Of a stretch of DNA of 31,744 bases, positions 2,688 through 28,577 are shown one piece after another. Within the stretch, counting starts at the first letter, position 1. The number at the start of each line of letters is the position of its first letter. The notes under the pieces are model-generated. The model was not told the DNA's origin, made no database searches, and was given only the letters and a program-made list of their open reading frames with translations. Source of the DNA: a virus; the IMG/VR virus record IMGVR_UViG_3300037042_004100, positions 1-31,744 of that record; one strand, written 5' to 3'. The position numbers and the translations under genes are program-made.

Positions 2688-3589
2688 GCTCCGACCTCCC
2701 GGGCGATTTCGTTGAGGCGGTCGATGGTTTCGCTGGCGGGTAGCCCGGCCTTACTGAGGGCGTCTAGCGATGCGGCCCGGTCAGGTGATGCGGCAAGGAT
2801 GCGGGTCTTCAAGGCCCCTGCCTCGGCCTTTTGTTCAGTGGTCCAGACTGGCTTTGCCGATGGGATGGCGGCGGTTGCGGCTGCCGGTTGGGCAGCGATT
2901 GGAGCCGGTGCCCCAGACTCCAGCCAACCAAAGACCACCGCGCCAAAGTCAGCCGCGCTAGGGTTCTTCCAGGTCTTGCCGTCAAGATCGGCGCAACGGG
3001 TCTTTGTGGTCCAGGCGTTGTGATCTTGGTCAAGCTCTAGGACAACGTCGAAATCATACTCTACACCATCCCTACACTCTGGCTTTGTCCCAACTTTTCG
3101 AGGCACCTTTTTACCACGATCGTTTTCCTCAATGAGCCATTCCGTTTTGCTGCGTATCGTGGCGATAACATGAATCTTGCTGCCGTTGATAGATTGCATC
3201 AAGGCATCCCAAATTGGAGTAACTTTCCCCCAAGACTGAAAGGAGTTAGACGACCGGCTTCGAGTAGTCTCCTGGTCAACAAGTTCAAGGGCCCCCTTCC
3301 ATCCATGCGTCAAGCTATCAATTATTACCACCTCATAACCAGATTCTTCAGCTGCGTGGATGGCAGCAAGATAAGTGCGTGGGTCCCGGTCGGGGATATC
3401 AAGAACATCGAAATTGAAACGATCGGCATACTTGCATGAAGATCTGTTTTCAGAATCAATAACGGCAACCCTACGGCCTTCGGTGATCGAGAGGGCGGTG
3501 TAGGTCTTCCCCGCTCCGGTAGGGCCAAGGATGGCAAGGCGTAGCTTAGCCTGCGTCTTCTCGGCTTTAGTAAAGGTGAATGTGCTCAT
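2684..3589 (-). CDS. RecA-like P-loop ATPase, Sak4-type recombinase
   Basis: The 301-aa protein starts FTFTKAEKTQAKLRLAILGPTGAGKT: Walker A is residues 22-29 (GPTGAGKT) and Walker B residues 87-91 (VVIID, followed by SLTHGW). The sensor-like segment KIHVIATIRSKTEW and later strands (YDFDVVLELDQDHNAW) complete a compact RecA core. Phage proteins of this type are Sak4-like ATPases of the Rad51/RecA superfamily, which promote SSB-dependent strand annealing. The C-terminal 80 residues are an Ala/Pro linker plus a small helical domain (ALKTRILAASPDRAASLDALSKAGL). ATG overlaps the upstream stop (ATGA). An SSB gene lies two genes downstream. Alternative: a DNA-packaging or partition-like P-loop ATPase, less likely given the context. 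Confidence 0.8.
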   Translation of the reverse strand: MSTFTFTKAEKTQAKLRLAILGPTGAGKTYTALSITEGRRVAVIDSENRSSCKYADRFNFDVLDIPDRDPRTYLAAIHAAEESGYEVVIIDSLTHGWKGALELVDQETTRSRSSNSFQSWGKVTPIWDALMQSINGSKIHVIATIRSKTEWLIEENDRGKKVPRKVGTKPECRDGVEYDFDVVLELDQDHNAWTTKTRCADLDGKTWKNPSAADFGAVVFGWLESGAPAPIAAQPAAATAAIPSAKPVWTTEQKAEAGALKTRILAASPDRAASLDALSKAGLPASETIDRLNEIAREVGA

Positions 3590-11734: not shown

Positions 11735-12333
11735 CCCACCCTCAGATTTCGCCCCAAGCTTACCGATAGGAAACGCTGCATCACGGCGATCATCTTTGCG
11801 CGGTCGGCCATATTCGGCTTGACCGGTTCGCGCACGGGTAGGGATCCCGATCCTTCGGCGTGGTACTTCGCATACTCCGGCAGGCGGGCAAAGATGACTC
11901 GGCCCCGGTCACCGGTGGGAACGATAACCACCCGGGCACGACCAGCGGTCACGGCCTGTCGAAGCGTTCCATATCGGACAAGGATTGGGAGGTTTTTGCT
12001 GGATCCAAGACCAGTCATCTCCCCGGTGCTGCTCTGATAGGCCACGGCGGTCATGCCGGAAACCTTGCGGCCTAGTTTCTTCTGCACCTTCCGCAAGTGC
12101 GACGCATTCCCGGCCTTGGCCCTTGCGTAGTCGTACGACAGTGGTGCAAACCGGGCGTTCCCCTGCCCCTTGAAACGGTCATCAACGATCGGATCACCAC
12201 GGCCTGCAACGCCAGCGGAGGAACCCCCGGCCCCACCATTAGCGAAGGCCATGCAGCCTTGCTCAAGCATAGCGCGAAGCCGGGTCTTGGTTTGGTCAAC
12301 CTTGAGCAGCAAGCCACGGGGGTTGGCGCTCAT
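11731..12333 (-). CDS. gpG-like virion morphogenesis / tail completion protein
   Basis: The 200-aa basic protein has the pattern of Mu gpG-like morphogenesis proteins. A helical N-terminus (KVDQTKTRLRAMLEQG) is followed by a Gly-rich loop with FAPLSYDYARAKAG, then SSKNLPILVRYGTLRQAV and the late motif YAKYHAEGSGSLPVREP, close to the Y..YH..G....P.RPF signature of the family. In Mu-like phages gpG helps join head and tail or completes the tail. It follows the MuF-like gene, as in Mu (F then G), with an ATGA overlap. Start is ATG 12333. Confidence 0.7.
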   Translation of the reverse strand: MSANPRGLLLKVDQTKTRLRAMLEQGCMAFANGGAGGSSAGVAGRGDPIVDDRFKGQGNARFAPLSYDYARAKAGNASHLRKVQKKLGRKVSGMTAVAYQSSTGEMTGLGSSKNLPILVRYGTLRQAVTAGRARVVIVPTGDRGRVIFARLPEYAKYHAEGSGSLPVREPVKPNMADRAKMIAVMQRFLSVSLGRNLRVG

Positions 12334-13964
12334 ACCTGCCCCGCGAGATACGACTGCACCTGTCCCTGTGTGGCTGGCGGCAGAGACGACAGGGCCAGCC
12401 CACCGGCCTGGACCTTGGCGGCAAGCGATGCGACCTCACGGGCAGAGAGAGCCCCGGGCGGGCTGGTCATCACCTGGGACACCATGCGGACGATCTCGCG
12501 GCCATCTGGCAAACCCAGACGCTTGGCCTCCAGGAACCCCCGGGCGGTGGCCTCGGCAGGGTTGCCCCGGCTCATCACATCAGCGATGGATTCCCAGCCC
12601 GGGGCGTTGTCGTTTAGCCAGTCCTTGTAGGGCAGGCCCGGAACCGCCTCGGGATTGGCGGGAGCGGTCGGGAGGATCTGGCGAGCGACGGCCCCCGGCT
12701 TCCCTGTAGCGGCAACGTGAACCAGCGTGCAGCGGCAATTGCTTGTAAATGCACCATCGCTCACAACATGCCCGAACGGAGAACGGAAATCGTAAACATG
12801 ACCATCATAATCAAACCGGATGACCTCAACAACCTCATCAAGGATTACCTTGCCGGAGGACTCATTAATGATCTCGCTTACAAATACGGGGTTAGCGCAA
12901 ATGGCGTCCGTAAACGGCTTGTAGAGGCAGGAGTAAAAATGCGGACCAAATCCGAATCGGACCGCATCAAGGCGGGGTGTGTTGACGATATCAACTCCAT
13001 CCTCAGTGATTACGATGCCGGGGAGTCCATTAATTCCATAGCCAATAGGGTATCCATGTCCCGCCCCGCCATCCGGCGATGGCTGATGAAGGCCGGGGCC
13101 AAGATCCGAACCTCTTCTGAGCAAGAGCGAATCAAGTGGGCTTCCATGCCCAAAGATCGTCGGGATGCCCAGGTAGCGGCTGCCCACAATGCTGCGAGGA
13201 TCAAACTCAATGGGCGTCCCCTCACAGCTCAATGTTACCTTGCCGGAGCCAAGGAAAGGGCGGAATCCCGCCGAATGACCCGCTATGAGGCCTCCATCTG
13301 CAACTACCTTCTTTCCCTGGGGCTGGAAGTAATCCCCCAAAAACAGGTAGGCCCCTACAACGTCGATTTTGCCATTGATGGACTCCCCGTCGCCGTGGAA
13401 GTAATGAGGGGAGTTGCGGGCATGCGACACCGGCCCCGCATTCAAAAGCGCACGAAACACTTGCTCGGCGGTGGGTGGGCGGTGGTATTCATCTACCTCA
13501 GCCAAGGAGCCCCCAACGACCTGACGAGGATCGACAAGCACCTTGTCCCCATTGTTGATGCTGCCCGCCGCAATGAGCCCATTGCTGGTAACTGTTGGGT
13601 GATTCGCTGTAACCCGAAGCCTAGCACCGCTCTTTGTGCGGATCTCGACGGCATCCCCTTTATAGAGTGCGCGTGATGCTCCATCAAAGATGCCGGATAT
13701 AGGAGCATCAGGAAGGAAGCACCCGAAGTCCATAGGAGGGATCGGCGCACGGGGATCATCAAGCCGCCAAACGGTACCATGGAGCGCCGCATGAGATGGC
13801 CTCACCCGATCATCCGGCGTCCCAGCGGGATCATGCTCCCCGGGCCCGGTCTGGCACACAAGCTGGACAAATACGGCATCGGCATCAAGAACGCCCTGTG
13901 CCTCGGCCTCTTGCCGGGTCGGGTCGTCAATCGGTAGGCCGGTCAGTGGAGCGGCAATGGGCAT
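12330..13964 (-). CDS. MuF-like minor head protein interrupted by an intein
   Basis: MuF-like proteins sit near the portal and take part in head morphogenesis. The 544-aa precursor is an 81-residue N-extein, a 328-residue intein (residues 82-409) and a 135-residue C-extein, giving a 216-aa spliced protein. Joining the exteins restores the family signature R-P-x-H-A-A-L-x-G-x-V ... D-D-P ... P-P-x-D-F-G-C-R-C. The intein splits it immediately before the CRC motif, whose first Cys is the +1 nucleophile. ATG 13964 is chosen (GGGAAGG upstream); a TTG at 13970 is too near the SD. The C-extein beyond CRC is helical. The upstream gene may supply the helical N-terminal part of the usual MuF domain. 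A nuclease gene lies antisense inside the intein. Confidence 0.85.
   Translation of the reverse strand: MPIAAPLTGLPIDDPTRQEAEAQGVLDADAVFVQLVCQTGPGEHDPAGTPDDRVRPSHAALHGTVWRLDDPRAPIPPMDFGCFLPDAPISGIFDGASRALYKGDAVEIRTKSGARLRVTANHPTVTSNGLIAAGSINNGDKVLVDPRQVVGGSLAEVDEYHRPPTAEQVFRALLNAGPVSHARNSPHYFHGDGESINGKIDVVGAYLFLGDYFQPQGKKVVADGGLIAGHSAGFRPFLGSGKVTLSCEGTPIEFDPRSIVGSRYLGIPTIFGHGSPLDSLLLRRGSDLGPGLHQPSPDGGAGHGYPIGYGINGLPGIVITEDGVDIVNTPRLDAVRFGFGPHFYSCLYKPFTDAICANPVFVSEIINESSGKVILDEVVEVIRFDYDGHVYDFRSPFGHVVSDGAFTSNCRCTLVHVAATGKPGAVARQILPTAPANPEAVPGLPYKDWLNDNAPGWESIADVMSRGNPAEATARGFLEAKRLGLPDGREIVRMVSQVMTSPPGALSAREVASLAAKVQAGGLALSSLPPATQGQVQSYLAGQV
12738..13721 (-). mobile_element. intein in the MuF-like head protein
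   Basis: The intein is 328 residues, from Cys1 (codon 13721-13719) to the final Asn (12740-12738). Block A is CFLPDAPISGIFDGASRALY and block B is RLRVTANHPTVTSNG with the TxxH histidine. Block F is VIRFDYDGHVYDFRSPFGH and block G is AFTSN before +1 Cys. The penultimate residue is Ser instead of the common His. There is no in-frame endonuclease domain. Instead the nuclease is on the other strand (12798-13676) and covers all but the first 15 and last 20 codons. Confidence 0.88.
12798..13676 (+). CDS. homing endonuclease, Vsr/DUF559-like, antisense within the MuF intein
   Basis: The 292-aa product has two tandem helix-turn-helix modules, residues about 15-45 (INDLAYKYGVSANGVRKRLVEAG) and 68-100 (INSIANRVSMSRPAIRRWLMKAG). 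A linker and a nuclease domain of the Vsr / DUF559 type follow: TRYE (E164), YNVDF (D190), AVEV (E201), then basic residues and GWAVVFIYL. This E-D-E core belongs to the PD-(D/E)XK fold seen in EDxHD homing nucleases. Starts at 12717 (GTG) and 12768 (ATG) share the frame; 12798 is chosen because it has GGAA upstream and lies well inside the intein. Its codons lie exactly in register with the antisense intein codons, so absence of TTA, CTA and TCA codons keeps the intein open. It would cut intein-free MuF genes and spread the intein. Confidence 0.8.
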   Translation: MTIIIKPDDLNNLIKDYLAGGLINDLAYKYGVSANGVRKRLVEAGVKMRTKSESDRIKAGCVDDINSILSDYDAGESINSIANRVSMSRPAIRRWLMKAGAKIRTSSEQERIKWASMPKDRRDAQVAAAHNAARIKLNGRPLTAQCYLAGAKERAESRRMTRYEASICNYLLSLGLEVIPQKQVGPYNVDFAIDGLPVAVEVMRGVAGMRHRPRIQKRTKHLLGGGWAVVFIYLSQGAPNDLTRIDKHLVPIVDAARRNEPIAGNCWVIRCNPKPSTALCADLDGIPFIECA

Positions 13965-13966
13965 GT

Positions 13967-14584
13967 TCAAGCCTTCCCGGTTAGAGCCTGACCAACGGCG
14001 CGCACAGCGGCAGCGACCCCGGCAAGGTGGCCCTGTTCAACGGCAAAGGACAGGCGACCAGCGGAGGCATCAGCGACCCGGCCAAGCTCGGACGGGATCG
14101 ACCGTGGATCAACGGTGGTCGAGAGCGGAAGGGCAAGGGCCTGCTGAATGCCATCGCCCAAGGCGCGGGCGAGGTCCATGGCCCACTCCTCAACCGTGAA
14201 CCCCAGAACCGGAAGGCCGGATAGGTCGTCCCGGTCCTGCTCAGTCACGGTTGCAGACAGGCCAAGCGGAACCGCCCGGGTCTGGCCAGCCACAGCGAAG
14301 CCCGACACGATGGCGTCCAGGACAAGCCGGGAGGCGTCAGCGTAGGCGCGGGCTTGGTCGGCCTGGATAGCCTGCTGGACCTTGGGGTCTTGCCGGATCT
14401 TGCGGAGGTCCCGGCCCGGCTCACCCAAGGCAGAGCCACCATCGGCGGCGGCAATGGCCCCGATGATGGCTTGAGACGCGGCAATGGTCGCCTGGGATAC
14501 GTGCCCCATACCGATTGCCTTAGCCTCAGCCATGAGCCGTTGGCGGTCTTCCTCCTCTTTGGCGATGGCCTGGGAGAGATTCAT
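13967..14584 (-). CDS. head morphogenesis-associated helical protein
   Basis: The 205-aa product is almost wholly helical and Ala-rich (SQAIAKEEEDRQRLMAEAKA, VQQAIQADQARAYADASRLV, WAMDLARALGDGIQQALALP, VEQGHLAGVAAAVRAVGQAL). ATG 14584 overlaps the upstream TGA as ATGA; the frame to 14641 is shadow. It is followed within three bases by the MuF-like gene. Because MuF proteins normally have a helical N-terminal half of about this size, this gene may encode that half as a separate chain. That is an inference from order and composition only. Confidence 0.55.
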   Translation of the reverse strand: MNLSQAIAKEEEDRQRLMAEAKAIGMGHVSQATIAASQAIIGAIAAADGGSALGEPGRDLRKIRQDPKVQQAIQADQARAYADASRLVLDAIVSGFAVAGQTRAVPLGLSATVTEQDRDDLSGLPVLGFTVEEWAMDLARALGDGIQQALALPLSTTVDPRSIPSELGRVADASAGRLSFAVEQGHLAGVAAAVRAVGQALTGKA

Positions 14585-23075: not shown

Positions 23076-24230
23076 TTATCCCAGGACGAGCTTGAGCAGT
23101 TCCGGGCGAACCACGGAGACGCCCCATGCACTGGAAAGCTCGTAGTTATTCAGGCCGTAGCCCTTGTAGGTCGAGAAGCGGCAGCCGATGCCGGTTTCAG
23201 GATCCATAACCTCGATGTGTTCACCAGCATCGCCACCGTCCGGCAGGCGGGGGAGACGGATAGCCAGACCGATGGCTTCACGGTGGAAGGCCAGATTCCG
23301 GCGACCAGCCGACAGGGTGATGGCGTTGTTGTCCGCAATGCCGTTGACCAGACCGCTGGTGAGGGTCAGGGTGCCCGCGCCGCCAGCGTGGGCAGCGGCC
23401 AGAACATAACGGTTTGTCGTGTCAGCGGCGAACGAAATTACCGTGCCCTCAGGAATGGCACCAGTGCCGGTGTCCACGATGATCGAGGTAGCGCCAGCGG
23501 CAGCCGCGCCGTTGACCAGATAGCCGGTACCGGCAATGGTCGCGCCGGTTTTCACGTCGTTACCCCAAACCACATTGAAGCCAGCAAGCTGGCCGATGAT
23601 GCCCTGGCGCAGGAGGTCGCTGGAGCCAGCCTCGCTCACCTTGACCAACTGGCCCAGGTTTCCGAGGTTGGCCTTGGCGGCGGTGTCGATGAAGAGGAAC
23701 CGGTCTTCCGACGGGGCCAGGGAGTCGTTGAGCAGCTTTTCAGCGCCAGTGATCAAGCTGATATCCGAGGCAAACGGAGTGGTTCCAGCAACGCCGAGGG
23801 ACGCACCGGAAGACGGGGTGCTGGTGCTGTAATAACCGGCGGCGTCAACGTGCAGGCCAGCGATGTCGGCATGCACCTCGTTACGCCAAGCGCGCATGGC
23901 CTGAGCCATGCTCAGGGGCATGAACTCGGGGTTCTGCTGCATGCGCAAAAAGTCGTCGCCCGTCATGTGGAACGGGAACTTGCGGTCCTTGGTGATGGTG
24001 ATGTTGGTGCTGGTCACGGTACGGTCAGATGCAACCGTGAAGGTTGCAGCGGGGGTACGGTCGGCACCAGCAACGGCGGGCGCGAAGGGGACCGGGACGG
24101 ACTGGCTCAGTGCGACCTGATCAGCGCGGAAGTCGGTCATGACCATCGAAGGCAGGGCGGCACGTTCGGCCAGAACCCGGCGCATGGAGGCCGTGAGGTT
24201 GGGGATGATGGGGGTGAAAGTATTGGGCAT
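23076..24230 (-). CDS. major capsid protein, P22-coat-like
   Basis: The 384-aa product has the HK97-fold coat pattern of the P22 gp5 type. An N-terminal arm (MPNTFTPIIPNLTASMRRVL) leads to FRADQVALSQSVPVPFAPAV, then the long spine helix (SMAQAMRAWRNEVHADIAGL), an inserted-domain-like region, and the late segment RNLAFHREAIGLAIRLPRLP. The latter is the typical coat motif where the A domain ends. Scaffold and portal genes come right before. ATG 24230 is three bases after the scaffold stop. It forms the icosahedral shell with the help of the scaffold. Confidence 0.85.
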   Translation of the reverse strand: MPNTFTPIIPNLTASMRRVLAERAALPSMVMTDFRADQVALSQSVPVPFAPAVAGADRTPAATFTVASDRTVTSTNITITKDRKFPFHMTGDDFLRMQQNPEFMPLSMAQAMRAWRNEVHADIAGLHVDAAGYYSTSTPSSGASLGVAGTTPFASDISLITGAEKLLNDSLAPSEDRFLFIDTAAKANLGNLGQLVKVSEAGSSDLLRQGIIGQLAGFNVVWGNDVKTGATIAGTGYLVNGAAAAGATSIIVDTGTGAIPEGTVISFAADTTNRYVLAAAHAGGAGTLTLTSGLVNGIADNNAITLSAGRRNLAFHREAIGLAIRLPRLPDGGDAGEHIEVMDPETGIGCRFSTYKGYGLNNYELSSAWGVSVVRPELLKLVLG

Positions 24231-24233
24231 GGT

Positions 24234-24908
24234 TTACTCTGAGATTTTGAGCTTACCGGCGGCGATGTCGCGGGCGGTAGTGGTTGATTGGGCGGGGTCG
24301 CGCATCCGGGTGGTGTACTCGGAGAGGCTGATGGTCTTGACCGTGGCCCCGGTAGCGGGACGGCCAATTCCTGCGCCAGAACCCGGAGCCGTTGAAGCGG
24401 CGCGGAGGTAGGGGCGCTTATCGAGGATTTCAGCCAAGAACGCATCCACGCCCAGGGGCTTTCCCTCAGAATCAAGACGGGGGCGTCCGCCCTCGCCAAT
24501 GACTACGAGGTTTCCCGTTTCCAGGTCGTAGTCGCAAACCGAACCGGTTAGCGAGAGAATATCGTCAGCGGCTTCGGTGATCACGCCGGGAGTCTTCAGA
24601 ATGGCCGACTTGAGAGCGGTCGCCTTGAGGTTGGCCTTGAGCTTGCCGATGGTCTGGCCGTGCTGTTCGGTCGCTTTCTTGAGGGCCGCTTCAAACTCGC
24701 CCTTGCTGGTGAGCTTGGCCACCTCGGCCTCCTGAGCGGCGGCAGCGGCGGCGGCCTTGGCCTCGGCTTCCTTGGCGCTGAGGGCGGAAACCTGCTCAGA
24801 CAGGGTGCGGAGGCGTTCCTTCTGGTTCTGACGGGCGGCAATTACCTTGTCGGCAATCTCGTCATCAAGTTCCAGCTCGACGCCTTCAAAGTCAACTTTC
24901 TTCGGCAT
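24234..24908 (-). CDS. capsid scaffolding protein
   Basis: The 224-aa protein is acidic at the start (VDFEGVELELDDEIADKVIA). A long Ala/Lys/Glu coiled coil spans residues 25-110 (RLRTLSEQVSALSAKEAEAK, AAAAAAAQEAEVAKLTSKG). A more ordered part follows (VITEAADDILSLTG, VDAFLAEILDKRPYL), with a Gly/Ala-rich tail. This layout and the place between portal and coat gene are typical of scaffolds that direct procapsid assembly and are then removed. ATG 24908. No protease motif is seen, so removal by exit instead of cleavage is likely. Confidence 0.8.
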   Translation of the reverse strand: MPKKVDFEGVELELDDEIADKVIAARQNQKERLRTLSEQVSALSAKEAEAKAAAAAAAQEAEVAKLTSKGEFEAALKKATEQHGQTIGKLKANLKATALKSAILKTPGVITEAADDILSLTGSVCDYDLETGNLVVIGEGGRPRLDSEGKPLGVDAFLAEILDKRPYLRAASTAPGSGAGIGRPATGATVKTISLSEYTTRMRDPAQSTTTARDIAAGKLKISE

Positions 24909-24965: not shown

Positions 24966-26366
24966 TTAGGTCAGGGGGCCGCGCGGTGGCTCGCCAATGG
25001 CCTTGATTTGCTCGGCAAGGATCAAGTCCCGTTCGCTGCCGGGCTCAATCTGGAGGGCATGGCGGGCCAGTTTCTCCCAAGCGGCAGCAACCAGGACCGG
25101 TGGGGCTCCGTTGAGTTTGAGTGAACCGGCAGCCTCCACCGCGCTGGACAGGTCCAGGGGGGCGAACTCGCGGGCGTAGTTCACGGGGTCGGCGGGGGCG
25201 AAGTTGAAGCCAGCGGCGGCGCGCTCCATGACTCGCCGTTCAAATCCCTCGGCCACTTCAGCAAGGCGCGCAAGGCGTGCTTCGATTTCGTTAAAGGCGA
25301 AGGCGCGGGCAACCCCGCTCTCAGGCTGGCCAACCTGGGTTGCGGAACCGGCGACAAGACCGGCGGATCGGTATAGCTCATTGACCTCATAGGCCAATTG
25401 TTCCCGGAGGCTCCCGGCCTGTGAAACGTCAGCGGAAAGTTTGCTTACCCCCGGCGTGGCCCCGCCCTCCTGAGGAGCAAGGCAAAGCGCCATCCCGCTC
25501 CCAATAGTCGCCTGCCCAATCGTATCCTTTGAGACGTTCGTAAAAACGTGCGTCGTGAAGGTGACGTTATGCAACTCCTCCAAGAGGAGCGTTTCCAGCA
25601 CAGCGATGCGTCGTTGACCTTCGCACCATGGGCCAGCAACCGGGGCATCATCGCTGCCAAGTTCCATCCTGATCAGCGGGCAGCCGCCGTAGGTGTGGGC
25701 AACCGGCTCCTCAACCTCCTGCACACGCCAAGAGGCCGGGTTATCCTCCTCCCCGGTAAGGTTGACGCGCTGGGTAGATTCCTCGTTGACCATCCACAAG
25801 AACGGAGCCCCGGAACGGCCCGCCATCACGATGACGGCCTCGACCACGTCATCTTCCCAGCAGCGCTCCCAGATGACCTGTTGCGGCTCAATCTCGCGGA
25901 CAATCGGGCGTGCCCCGGCTGCCTGCTCTTGGGCGGCAGTGCCGTAGACCCCGTCGGCGGTGTTGTCGATGAGCCCGTAAGCCACGCCCAAGACCATTGC
26001 GGTTGTTTCGGTGGATCGGATGACGTTGTGGATCGACTTCCCCCGACCGTTGGCATCGGCCAAGAGCAAGGACGCCATTCCCGAGGCGGTACGCTGGGGA
26101 GACTGACGGAAGACGTGGTCAACGTACCGATCAACAAGGTGACGGACCAGAGGGCGCACCATGGCCGTTTGCTTGCGCCGGGAATACCGCTTGTCCGATT
26201 CGTTCTCGTGCTTGGGCAGGATATCCGCGCCGGTCAGGTCCCCAGCATCGAAATACTCTAGGCCGGAAGCCTCGTAGGACTCCTCCCAAAACTTCCGGGG
26301 CTGGGATAGCCGCTTCCACTCTGCGGAGAGGGGGACTGGATCACCGGGGGCGAGAGTAGGGAACAC
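24966..26366 (-). CDS. portal protein
   Basis: The portal is the dodecameric ring through which DNA enters and leaves. The 466-aa product has a helix-rich start (WEESYEASGLEYFDAGDLTG, YSRRKQTAMVRPLVRHLVDR), a wing/clip beta region (VIVMAGRSGAPFLWMVNEES), and long C-terminal helices (ESGVARAFAFNEIEARLARL). The layout resembles portals of the DUF4055 kind. It lies between large terminase and scaffold. The start is uncertain: the frame is open back to the TAG of the terminase gene, with no ATG and only GTG 26366 or a CTG nearby, and no good SD. Confidence 0.8.
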   Translation of the reverse strand: MFPTLAPGDPVPLSAEWKRLSQPRKFWEESYEASGLEYFDAGDLTGADILPKHENESDKRYSRRKQTAMVRPLVRHLVDRYVDHVFRQSPQRTASGMASLLLADANGRGKSIHNVIRSTETTAMVLGVAYGLIDNTADGVYGTAAQEQAAGARPIVREIEPQQVIWERCWEDDVVEAVIVMAGRSGAPFLWMVNEESTQRVNLTGEEDNPASWRVQEVEEPVAHTYGGCPLIRMELGSDDAPVAGPWCEGQRRIAVLETLLLEELHNVTFTTHVFTNVSKDTIGQATIGSGMALCLAPQEGGATPGVSKLSADVSQAGSLREQLAYEVNELYRSAGLVAGSATQVGQPESGVARAFAFNEIEARLARLAEVAEGFERRVMERAAAGFNFAPADPVNYAREFAPLDLSSAVEAAGSLKLNGAPPVLVAAAWEKLARHALQIEPGSERDLILAEQIKAIGEPPRGPLT

Positions 26367-26393: not shown

Positions 26394-26417
26394 GGCGCGA
26401 ACCGGAGCGGTTTCCTA
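26394..26417 (-). repeat. intergenic 3' element, copy C
   Basis: Minus strand TAGGAAACCGCTCCGGTTCG starts at the TAG of the large-terminase gene. It matches copies A and B at most positions and keeps a hairpin (AACCG/CGGTT), with the changes concentrated in the loop. Confidence 0.5.
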
Positions 26418-28577
26418 GAGCCCCGGCAGGGCGATGGATCCATTCGTGACCGGCGGTCTGGTAACGTCCCAGGCGAGGTATCCCAAGGCGTCCAGGATAT
26501 GCCCACGATCCCCCTTATCGCCCGGGTCGTATCCGCCCGAGGTCAGAAGCTTGGTCCGCTCTAGCTCTTGGATAATCCGGGTGCAGCGGGGATGCACGAC
26601 CAACCGTCGGCGACCGTCGGCGGCACAACATAGGCGGGACAGGTTGGCGATACGGGCGGCAACCGGGGGGTTTGCCCCGGACGCGGATCCGGTGTACTTC
26701 CACCCCAGAGATTGCGCGGTCTGCTGCATCACCTTGAACTCACTGTCCCCGGTCGTGCTGCGGGCCTTGCTGCTCTTGTCCGGGTGGAGGTGGACAACGG
26801 CCCGACCCCATCCCTTGGCGTGGGCCTCGTATATTGCCGCGTCCACTGTGGTCCCGCCGGTCAGGAATAGTTCATCAAGGATCCGCACTTCACCGTCCAC
26901 GTATTGGCCAAGACACCAGCCCATGGGATCGACGTTGTAGTCGGCCCCCAGGTGCAGGGGCAGGCCCGGGGCATCGTTGAACTCTCGCACGTTGGCAAGG
27001 GCCAGGAAGCCGGGGTGAGCTCGGGATCCGCCAACGTCAACGGCCAGCCCTTCCAAGTACTGCTTCGCCACGTCAGCGGAGAAGGATGCCATCAGGGAGG
27101 CAACATAGCCCGGCGGAAGGGCCGGGTTCTTGGTGGTCAGTCCCCGGTAATATCGCCGGTCTGGCGTGGGATGGTCGATGAAGTCCCGTTGGACCCAGGT
27201 GTCTAGGCCCTCGGGAGTGGTCGTGCAGAGGAGGTGCAGACGGTGCCATGGGCTATCGGAGAAGCCACGCACACGGGACCGGATCTGCGTGGGGGCATCG
27301 CGCAAAGGGTCTTCGCTGGTCTTGATGCGCGCCGCTTCATCGACCCACCCATGGGCGACCTCAAAACCAGCGAAGCGGCGGGGATCCTCTGCCGATAGAA
27401 GCCAGATAGGATAGTCCCCCACGATGATACAGGGAACGTCAGAGCGGGATTGATCCTTGTATGGCCACCCCCATTCCGTGAGCGCCTTCATGAGGGCCGG
27501 GATCACAAAGCGGTGAAGGTCGCCATAGGTCGGGGCAATCGCCATCCCGGCGCATTGGTTGCGCTGGTGCAGCAAGAGCAATTTCCGAGCACCTGCCCAA
27601 CTCTTGCCGCTGTTGTGGTGCCATAGGCCGTTGGCTAGGTAATGGCCGAAGCCCGGAACGTTGATGTCGTAAAAAACGGAATTCGGAACGTGTTCTACCG
27701 TTGCAATCCTATCCCACCCAACTATATTAGAGCCCATGAAAGGGCTATCCCATGCCTCGCCCCCCTGGATCCCGTAACCCAAAAGCACGCCGTTGGATAA
27801 TGGAGCCTCGAATCCGTGAGCTTCATGCACTTGGCTGGACAACTGGCCAGATTGGGAGAGATGTGCAGATGCGCGGGGAGGATGTTCGACGCCTTCTTCG
27901 TGATCTCGATCTCCCGTCAAATATGCCGCATCATAGGGGAGAAAGCAACCCTGCGTGGAAGGGCGGGGTGATAATCGATAAGCACGGCTACAAATTGATT
28001 TGGAAGCCTGCCCACCCTCATGCATCTGCTTCAGGTCGAGTCCGTGAACATCGGCTTGTGATGGAGCAAGTCCTGGCGCGTTACCTTCTCCCGACTGAGG
28101 TTGTTGACCACATAAACGGGGATACTGGTGATAATAGGCCGGAAAATCTCCGGGTATTTGCGTCAAATGCTGAACACCTAAGGAAGACGCTATCTGGGAA
28201 GAAGCATAACATGTCAGCGGAGAACAGAGCAAAGCTGTCCCGGCTAGTGCGTCTTCGGAACGAATCCAGGCGGTCCCAGAATAAAACCGATGGTCAGGCG
28301 TGACCGTAACGGTTCGACCTGATTCCATGGTGAACCTTAGCATCTTGGAAACCGGGCCGACCACTGGGGGAGGGCATTGGACAACCCCCCTAGTGGTGAC
28401 GCAATAAAACGGAACAGCGGCGGCCCATAGATCGTCTATGCGCCGCTCAGTTCCATCCCCCATAGCGATGAGGGTGTCCCCAGCTAGACACCCAAGGCCG
28501 CCAACGTACAACGATTCCCCTGGTTTCATATCCCACAGAAAATCATGTTGGGCCTTTTGATTGCCGGATACCTGCAC
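26415..28577 (-). CDS. terL: large terminase subunit interrupted by an intein in the Walker A loop
   Basis: The large terminase pumps DNA into the procapsid (ATPase) and cuts concatemers (RNase H-like nuclease). The 720-aa precursor is a 29-residue N-extein ending GGLG, a 293-residue intein, and a 398-residue C-extein beginning SGKSWAGARK. Splicing rebuilds Walker A as G-G-L-G-S-G-K-S; the unspliced protein cannot bind ATP normally. Walker B is WVDEAA, the coupling motif LLCTTTPEG. The nuclease part shows GADYNVDPM, then RILDELFL and VHLHPDKSSKAR with acidic residues in the expected order. Spliced length 427 aa is usual for the family. Start is GTG 28577, the only start before an in-frame stop. 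An HNH endonuclease gene is antisense inside the intein. Confidence 0.92.
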   Translation of the reverse strand: MQVSGNQKAQHDFLWDMKPGESLYVGGLGCLAGDTLIAMGDGTERRIDDLWAAAVPFYCVTTRGVVQCPPPVVGPVSKMLRFTMESGRTVTVTPDHRFYSGTAWIRSEDALAGTALLCSPLTCYASSQIASSLGVQHLTQIPGDFPAYYHQYPRLCGQQPQSGEGNAPGLAPSQADVHGLDLKQMHEGGQASKSICSRAYRLSPRPSTQGCFLPYDAAYLTGDRDHEEGVEHPPRASAHLSQSGQLSSQVHEAHGFEAPLSNGVLLGYGIQGGEAWDSPFMGSNIVGWDRIATVEHVPNSVFYDINVPGFGHYLANGLWHHNSGKSWAGARKLLLLHQRNQCAGMAIAPTYGDLHRFVIPALMKALTEWGWPYKDQSRSDVPCIIVGDYPIWLLSAEDPRRFAGFEVAHGWVDEAARIKTSEDPLRDAPTQIRSRVRGFSDSPWHRLHLLCTTTPEGLDTWVQRDFIDHPTPDRRYYRGLTTKNPALPPGYVASLMASFSADVAKQYLEGLAVDVGGSRAHPGFLALANVREFNDAPGLPLHLGADYNVDPMGWCLGQYVDGEVRILDELFLTGGTTVDAAIYEAHAKGWGRAVVHLHPDKSSKARSTTGDSEFKVMQQTAQSLGWKYTGSASGANPPVAARIANLSRLCCAADGRRRLVVHPRCTRIIQELERTKLLTSGGYDPGDKGDRGHILDALGYLAWDVTRPPVTNGSIALPGL
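27701..27728 (+). promoter_or_regulatory. candidate promoter for the antisense HNH gene
   Basis: TTGCAA (27701-27706), 16 bases, TATATT (27723-27728) on the plus strand, 24 bases before the HNH start. An inverted repeat AGCCC-N5-GGGCT lies between it and the ATG and contains the SD-like AAGGG, so it could damp translation. Confidence 0.5.
27752..28303 (+). CDS. HNH homing endonuclease, antisense within the terL intein
   Basis: The 183-aa product has an N-terminal helix-turn-helix (about residues 20-50: IRELHALGWTTGQIGRDVQM then RGEDVRRLLRDL) and a beta-hairpin (GVIIDKHGYKLIW). The HNH core of the HNH_3 kind is REHRLVMEQVLAR with VVDHINGD (His120), DNRPENL (Asn128-Asn132) and NAEHL. The C-terminal basic segment (SAENRAKLSRLVRLRNES) resembles the DNA-binding NUMOD3 type. 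ATG 27752 has AAGGG about nine bases upstream. It lies wholly inside the terL intein on the opposite strand. It would cut intein-free terminase genes and copy the intein by repair. Confidence 0.88.
   Translation: MPRPPGSRNPKARRWIMEPRIRELHALGWTTGQIGRDVQMRGEDVRRLLRDLDLPSNMPHHRGESNPAWKGGVIIDKHGYKLIWKPAHPHASASGRVREHRLVMEQVLARYLLPTEVVDHINGDTGDNRPENLRVFASNAEHLRKTLSGKKHNMSAENRAKLSRLVRLRNESRRSQNKTDGQA

Follow-up and report, generated by a model that had tools for sequence, protein, structure and literature searches.

The MuF-like minor head protein gene of a viral genome is interrupted by an intein, as judged from its sequence features, and almost the whole of the complementary strand of that intein is a second gene, which encodes a predicted nuclease in exact codon register with it. 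The most likely interpretation, and a very likely one, is that of a mobile intein with its homing endonuclease encoded apart, by an antisense gene. The DNA analysed is the viral record IMGVR_UViG_3300037042_004100 of IMG/VR, taken over its whole length of 31,744 bases and referred to here as the window. The original prediction for this DNA had described the dual coding; the observation is confirmed as real and proves to be general. The evidence is computational and comprises both reading frames, their conservation, the selection acting on them, the predicted folds, the start signals and a signature of mobility.

In the mechanism proposed, the intein lacks an in-frame endonuclease domain, and the endonuclease would be supplied by a gene of its own on the opposite strand of the intein DNA. 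The minus strand would give the MuF precursor, from which the intein should excise itself by splicing. The plus strand would give a Vsr/DUF559-like nuclease with two helix-turn-helix (HTH) units, starting at an ATG and usually a Shine-Dalgarno sequence within block F. The nuclease would cut intein-free MuF alleles at a specific site, and homing would be completed by repair from the intein-bearing copy, which would spread intein and nuclease jointly. The shared DNA may embody a division of labour, in which the HTH half of the nuclease faces a linker predicted to be disordered, and folded structure is predicted both for the nuclease core and for the block B half of the intein.

The intein and the gene on its opposite strand

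The MuF-like gene lies downstream of the genes for TerL, portal, scaffold and major head protein, all of them late genes on the minus strand, and the direction of the nuclease gene opposes that of this late structural operon. The intein had been placed at 12738-13721 on the minus strand, with 328 codons, and these limits hold within the 546-aa MuF ORF, which is open throughout the intein. The insertion point in the host protein is PPMDFG/CRCTL. Block B reads TANHPTVT, block F HVYDF and block G SN/C; Cys1, the TxxH of block B, block F, block G with its terminal Asn, Cys+1 and in-frame insertion are all present in the window and in its relatives. PF14890 is matched in 62 of 66 relatives. Fold searches return RecA, DnaB and other inteins (best E 1.9e-3), and canonical inteins such as PI-MtuI and TliVMA are among the profile and fold matches. 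By the features tested the insert is an intein of the Hint superfamily, and it would be expected to splice. The AlphaFold model is folded at residues 1-130 and 288-328, the splicing core, and mostly disordered between, with pLDDT under 50 over most of residues 131-275; no in-frame nuclease match was found in this middle region. The segment FHGDG...VDVV (intein residues 108-122; about 13356-13400, minus strand) hardly varies in the intein frame, and is conserved there more than the nuclease would require.

Features of the window discussed in the text, by position and strand
Feature	Position	Strand	Remarks
MuF-like minor head protein gene, intein-interrupted	12330-13970	-	546-aa ORF; Pfam Phage_Mu_F at cut-off; TIGR01641 just under cut-off; phrog_15127 head protein
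Intein, 328 codons, Cys1 (13719-13721) to terminal Asn328 (12738-12740), then Cys+1	12738-13721	-	Blocks A, B, F, G
Block B TANHPTVT, residues 38-45	13587-13610	-	Opposite conserved nuclease VIR motif (residues 268-270); block B His invariant
Motif FHGDG, residues 108-112	13386-13400	-	Opposite nuclease catalytic VAVE; pLDDT about 78-90 at intein residues 101-120
Intein middle, residues 131-287, predicted mostly disordered	12861-13331	-	Opposite nuclease N-terminal and HTH part (residues 22-178); intein-frame omega 0.51-0.72
Block F region (DGHVYDFRSPFGHVV)	12762-12806	-	His codon CAT is the complement of the nuclease ATG
Nuclease leader	12778-12797	+	Relatives: GGAGG/GAGG 8-9 nt before ATG; window's own copy (CGGAAATCGTAAAC) weak
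Predicted homing-endonuclease gene, 292 codons and TGA	12798-13676 (ATG 12798, TGA 13674-13676)	+	Homologues in 115 phage records; mean pLDDT 87.4
Two helix-turn-helix units, nuclease residues about 7-43 and 65-98	12816-13091	+	PF19575 HTH_58; 2lvs profile match
Vsr/DUF559-like nuclease domain, residues 162-270, with E164, D190, E201	13281-13607	+	3hrl, 3r3p profile matches; 1vsr fold match with weak E-value
Major head protein gene	23076-24230	-	
341-aa antisense ORF, exact register opposite major head gene	23217-24242	+	Example of a by-product ORF
Scaffold gene	24234-24908	-	
Portal gene	24966-26366	-	
Terminase (TerL) gene	26415-28577	-	

The nuclease gene leaves uncovered 15 intein codons at the N-end, its TGA lying opposite codon 16, and 20 at the C-end, just as had been counted. 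The register is exact, as predicted, intein residue i pairing with nuclease residue j such that i + j = 309. TTA, CTA and TCA, the codons that would close the intein frame, had been said to be avoided, and none occurs among the 23 Leu and 17 Ser codons of the gene.

The reading of this product as a two-HTH, Vsr/DUF559-like enzyme with an E-D-E site is supported by several comparisons. Pfam HTH_58 (PF19575) scores above its cut-off in the nuclease frame, and the HTH part matches the CRISPR repeat-binding protein 2lvs over profile positions 8-101. The core has profile matches in the PDB to 3hrl, an endonuclease-like protein, and to 3r3p (E 3.2e-5), a mobile intron protein that we take to be I-Bth0305I. 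The alignment with 3r3p covers E164 and E201; that PDB chain has Ala where the nuclease has D190, and the EDxHD residues were not all located. E164, D190 and E201 are invariant or near-invariant in 63 relatives. In the fold search 1vsr is returned with a probability of 0.94 and a weak E-value; no PDB fold search gave an E-value below 0.001, and the sequence profile matches are the better evidence. The Pfam family MTES_1575/DUF559 scores 18.3 bits for the nuclease of the window, against a cut-off of 38.2, and at E <0.01 MTES_1575 is matched by 36 and DUF559 by 10 of the 63 relatives. The AlphaFold model is folded over residues 1-270, with the final 17 residues disordered. Matches to the phage homologues extend up to full length, at 26-33% identity.

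The two AlphaFold models together show that the HTH part of the nuclease lies opposite the disordered linker of the intein, and the nuclease core opposite folded intein. In the predicted models about 90 codons (nuclease 179-270, intein 39-130) serve two folded domains simultaneously, and here the nuclease core and the block B half of the intein constrain each other codon by codon. Blocks B and F had both been claimed to be complementary to nuclease codons. This is true of block B; block F lies mostly opposite the start codon and leader rather than the body of the gene.

ATG is the start in 74 of 75 nucleases whose profile match begins at the first column, and it is the complement of the block F His codon. 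A Shine-Dalgarno-like motif precedes 63 of these 74 starts, mostly 8-9 nt upstream, compared with 113 of 708 internal ATGs. The nuclease is probably translated. Against the proposed mechanism, a search of both strands at 12300-14000 gave no sigma-70-like promoter, and the Shine-Dalgarno sequence of the window itself is weak. Since the intein resides in a late structural gene, the antisense gene could be expressed earlier and independently, and the late location suggests why a homing nuclease might leave the frame of its host. The position of the nuclease start and ribosome-binding site in block F, the overlap of the nuclease core with the folded part of the intein and of the HTH part with its disordered linker, and the wide, conserved occurrence of the layout were no part of the original prediction.

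Conservation of the layout and selection in both frames

The layout was followed in 17 phage loci (Salmonella, Escherichia, Pantoea, Cronobacter, Pseudomonas, Klebsiella, Vibrio, Idiomarina-type, Aggregatibacter-type and Gordonia) and in 234 further loci obtained from four IMG/VR scans with nuclease subgroups; the whole-family alignment, A1, was too diverse for a scan of the collection, and subgroup alignments were used. An uninterrupted antisense nuclease and an uninterrupted MuF intein are present in all 17 phage loci, and each phage nuclease homologue checked lies opposite a MuF gene. Searching 398 Pseudomonadota genomes yielded one clear nuclease (L254), which is likewise antisense to an intein; weaker hits in these genomes were treated as ordinary DUF559-like genes and served as a control. 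Another locus from a profile search of genome contigs, L002, was spurious. Among phage records and viral contigs together, a stop-free intein frame lies opposite the nuclease in 252 of 252 nuclease-bearing loci, and all 252 of these frames match the intein profile, while the other two antisense frames hold 1-47 and 3-18 stops. Scans with the window's own proteins gave no viral relatives, so that it has no close kin among the viral sequences scanned. The layout is common to several hundred related phages of Pseudomonadota and Actinomycetota.

The absence of TTA, CTA and TCA on the intein side is partly by construction, because the nuclease ORFs were chosen as stop-free. Two results are free of this flaw. 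Among 184 non-redundant nucleases these codons number 0 in 45,913, where about 890 are expected from base composition; the control, stand-alone and weakly related DUF559-like bacterial genes, has 39 in about 2,830 codons. Conversely, when loci were picked by intein sequence alone, which makes the check non-circular, a full nuclease was present in 84 of 84. Intein-only relatives of this type were absent from the top 80 contigs. Loss of either frame in most relatives would have told against the original prediction, and neither frame is lost.

All loci examined have one uninterrupted MuF-intein ORF, and the host gene is not split in the manner of fractured genes. In L138/L249 (2278-4480) and L172 two nuclease ORFs lie opposite one MuF protein, with the opposite frame open for both; each of these loci has one intein at a second site (ARTE/T). 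The intein of L013 occupies another position in MuF. In two loci, L063 and L064, the nuclease frame is stopped near profile column 165 and the intein frame is open, as expected of a decaying homing nuclease.

Because the register makes each codon specify one nuclease and one intein residue, selection on the two frames could be estimated directly with a codon model that has two omegas. For the 184 sequences the fit gives the nuclease an omega of 0.22 and the intein one of 0.46, estimates that come from a simplified model with a fixed tree shape and from relatives, the window itself having no close relative. Fixing omega at 1 costs 2 delta lnL of 8,486 for the nuclease and 2,351 for the intein, and the result is repeated in four separate clusters. 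Extein controls from the same genes give a forward omega of 0.016-0.022 and a reverse omega of 0.85-0.92, the latter providing a baseline for a non-coding frame. The balance between the two frames shifts along the gene. Over profile columns 53-182 omega is 0.11-0.16 for the nuclease and 0.53-0.72 for the intein; over columns 235-286, opposite block B, the intein is the more constrained at 0.23-0.26, against 0.37-0.40 for the nuclease. Purifying selection thus acts in both frames, as the overlap test suggested with the original prediction required.

Synonymous sites of the nuclease are frozen opposite conserved intein residues. Opposite the invariant His of block B, Val is encoded by GTG in 139 of 139 Val-bearing nucleases, although GTG makes up 23% of Val codons gene-wide, and the nuclease codons opposite other block B residues are similarly frozen. 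The codons for the nuclease VAVE motif opposite FHGDG are near-fixed as well (GCC in 179 of 183, GTG in 157 of 163).

Signs of mobility and alternative readings

The distribution of the intein is patchy. The MuF of Salmonella phage vB_StyS-sam is matched by 349 phage records; in 58 of them the match spans at least 80% of this intein-bearing query, and among the other matches listed most are to the exteins only. In phage MA12 exactly 816 nt (272 codons) are absent at the N/C splice site, with 91.6% identity in the flanks, and Gordonia phages with host genes >95% identical differ in whether they carry the intein. The inteins of Salmonella phage sam and E. coli phage Snoke are 95.7% identical and their exteins 68% and 79%, an excess that is partly a product of double constraint. 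Double constraint alone does not explain this pair, since the intein of sam is only 82% identical to that of Pantoea AH01 at comparable extein divergence. The exact empty site, sporadic presence and apparent transfer are as expected of a mobile element and would fit homing.

It might be proposed instead that the nuclease serves some purpose other than homing, acting in competition between co-infecting phages or regulating the late MuF transcript by antisense transcription. The gene does run against the late structural operon, and homing nucleases can also exclude competitors, a point discussed in PMC7468147. This proposal is nevertheless unlikely: homing fits a pattern in which nearly identical host genes differ by the exact presence or absence of the intein at the splice site, and it fits the transfer signature; exclusion would be an added benefit of homing rather than an alternative to it.

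Less likely still is the possibility of a real nuclease paired with a relic intein, in which the minus strand is merely open and the middle is an inert, unselected linker. Constraint on the intein frame is only moderate in this predicted disordered middle, where an omega of 0.51-0.72 is not far under the value of 0.85-0.92 for an unused frame. All 252 sense frames, however, match the intein profile, the splicing blocks are kept across aligned relatives, and the intein is well constrained over its block B half; the frozen synonymous sites of the nuclease opposite block B and HGDG point the same way. MuF is, moreover, presumably essential, so that failed splicing would be costly.

The reading that the intein is the sole gene, its codon usage leaving the reverse frame open and its relatives showing mirrored similarity there, has a seeming parallel in the 341-aa ORF opposite the major capsid gene of the window, but it has next to no probability left and is already refuted by the selection and fold results, the nuclease frame having known domains, a confident predicted fold, matches to solved nucleases, more constraint than the intein frame through the middle, and a start codon and Shine-Dalgarno signal, and staying open at a GC content of 0.33-0.71. 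The capsid ORF is itself instructive. Though longer than the nuclease, it matches nothing in Pfam and has no homologue among phages, so that ORF length alone proves nothing; and because the capsid protein opposite it matches 78 phage records and the ORF none, mirrored similarity does not explain the 115 records matched by the nuclease.

Relation to known systems

A mobile intein with an antisense homing endonuclease differs from both arrangements known for inteins, as the original prediction had maintained: its nuclease is not in frame, and nothing is split. With canonical endonuclease-bearing inteins such as PI-MtuI and TliVMA it shares the Hint splicing fold, blocks A, B, F and G, and an endonuclease encoded inside the intein DNA. 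In those inteins, however, endonuclease and splicing domains form a single polypeptide read in one frame, whereas the middle of the MuF intein is predicted to be disordered and the nuclease has a gene of its own on the other strand. Vsr-like homing endonucleases also occur with fractured genes (Dassa et al. 2009, as cited in PMC12350094; I-Bth0305I), which share with the MuF case a related nuclease domain (that of 3r3p) and a free-standing nuclease tied to a phage intein. There the host gene and intein are split, with the nuclease between the halves; in MuF both are whole and the nuclease overlaps them in antisense.

Three other cases resemble the MuF layout in one respect each only. The ShiLan insertion (PMC11855218) is open in the host frame and encodes a homing-type nuclease in another frame, but its hidden HNH lies in frame three relative to the methylase, translation from the same transcript is assumed, there are no splicing domains, and its authors do not expect splicing. 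In group I introns, antisense genes for homing endonucleases (for example in Porphyra S1506, PMC2585584) lie on the complementary strand of a self-splicing element; the host element is an RNA intron in rDNA, and the same bases code for no second protein. Ambigrammatic narnaviruses (PMC8316113) have two opposing, almost fully overlapping ORFs on opposite strands. These are RNA viruses, and no known protein is homologous to the product of their reverse ORF; in the MuF case, by contrast, the folds and active sites of both products are recognisable. Inteins in MuF have been noted earlier (PMC11162368, PMC7468147), in passages that do not mention an antisense gene. Full-text searches of the open literature gave no description of a nuclease encoded antisense to an intein; a preprint on actinobacteriophage inteins of "non-canonical architecture" (Gosselin et al. 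2025, doi 10.1101/2025.01.02.630785) and Gorbalenya 1998, both outside that search, may bear on its novelty.

It is likely, with good confidence, that these loci represent a large and old class of phage inteins in which the in-frame endonuclease would have been replaced by an antisense, register-aligned homing nuclease, two folded enzymes, one the splicing core with block B and the other the nuclease core with its catalytic carboxylates, being selected on complementary codons and block F serving also as ribosome-binding site and start of the nuclease. In-register coding on opposite strands has reportedly been argued for early genes, an idea associated with Rodin and Ohno, and few modern cases are known to be well supported. 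The MuF inteins offer a case that nature has replicated in hundreds of phages from Pseudomonadota and Actinomycetota, where opposite strands of one stretch of DNA code in register for two folded proteins that are unrelated and each have an active site. Selection on each strand is measurable codon by codon, and both products can be assayed.

Two loci, L136 and L146, have inteins with a Hint_2-like N-terminal sequence and a different layout that also carry an antisense nuclease, which suggests that the nuclease has moved from one intein type to another.

The full nuclease gene is unannotated in the annotated phage records examined, and databases therefore miss a whole nuclease family. In LC507823.1 (L010) the public annotation has a plus-strand hypothetical protein at 2703-3104, inside the intein and overlapping the nuclease.
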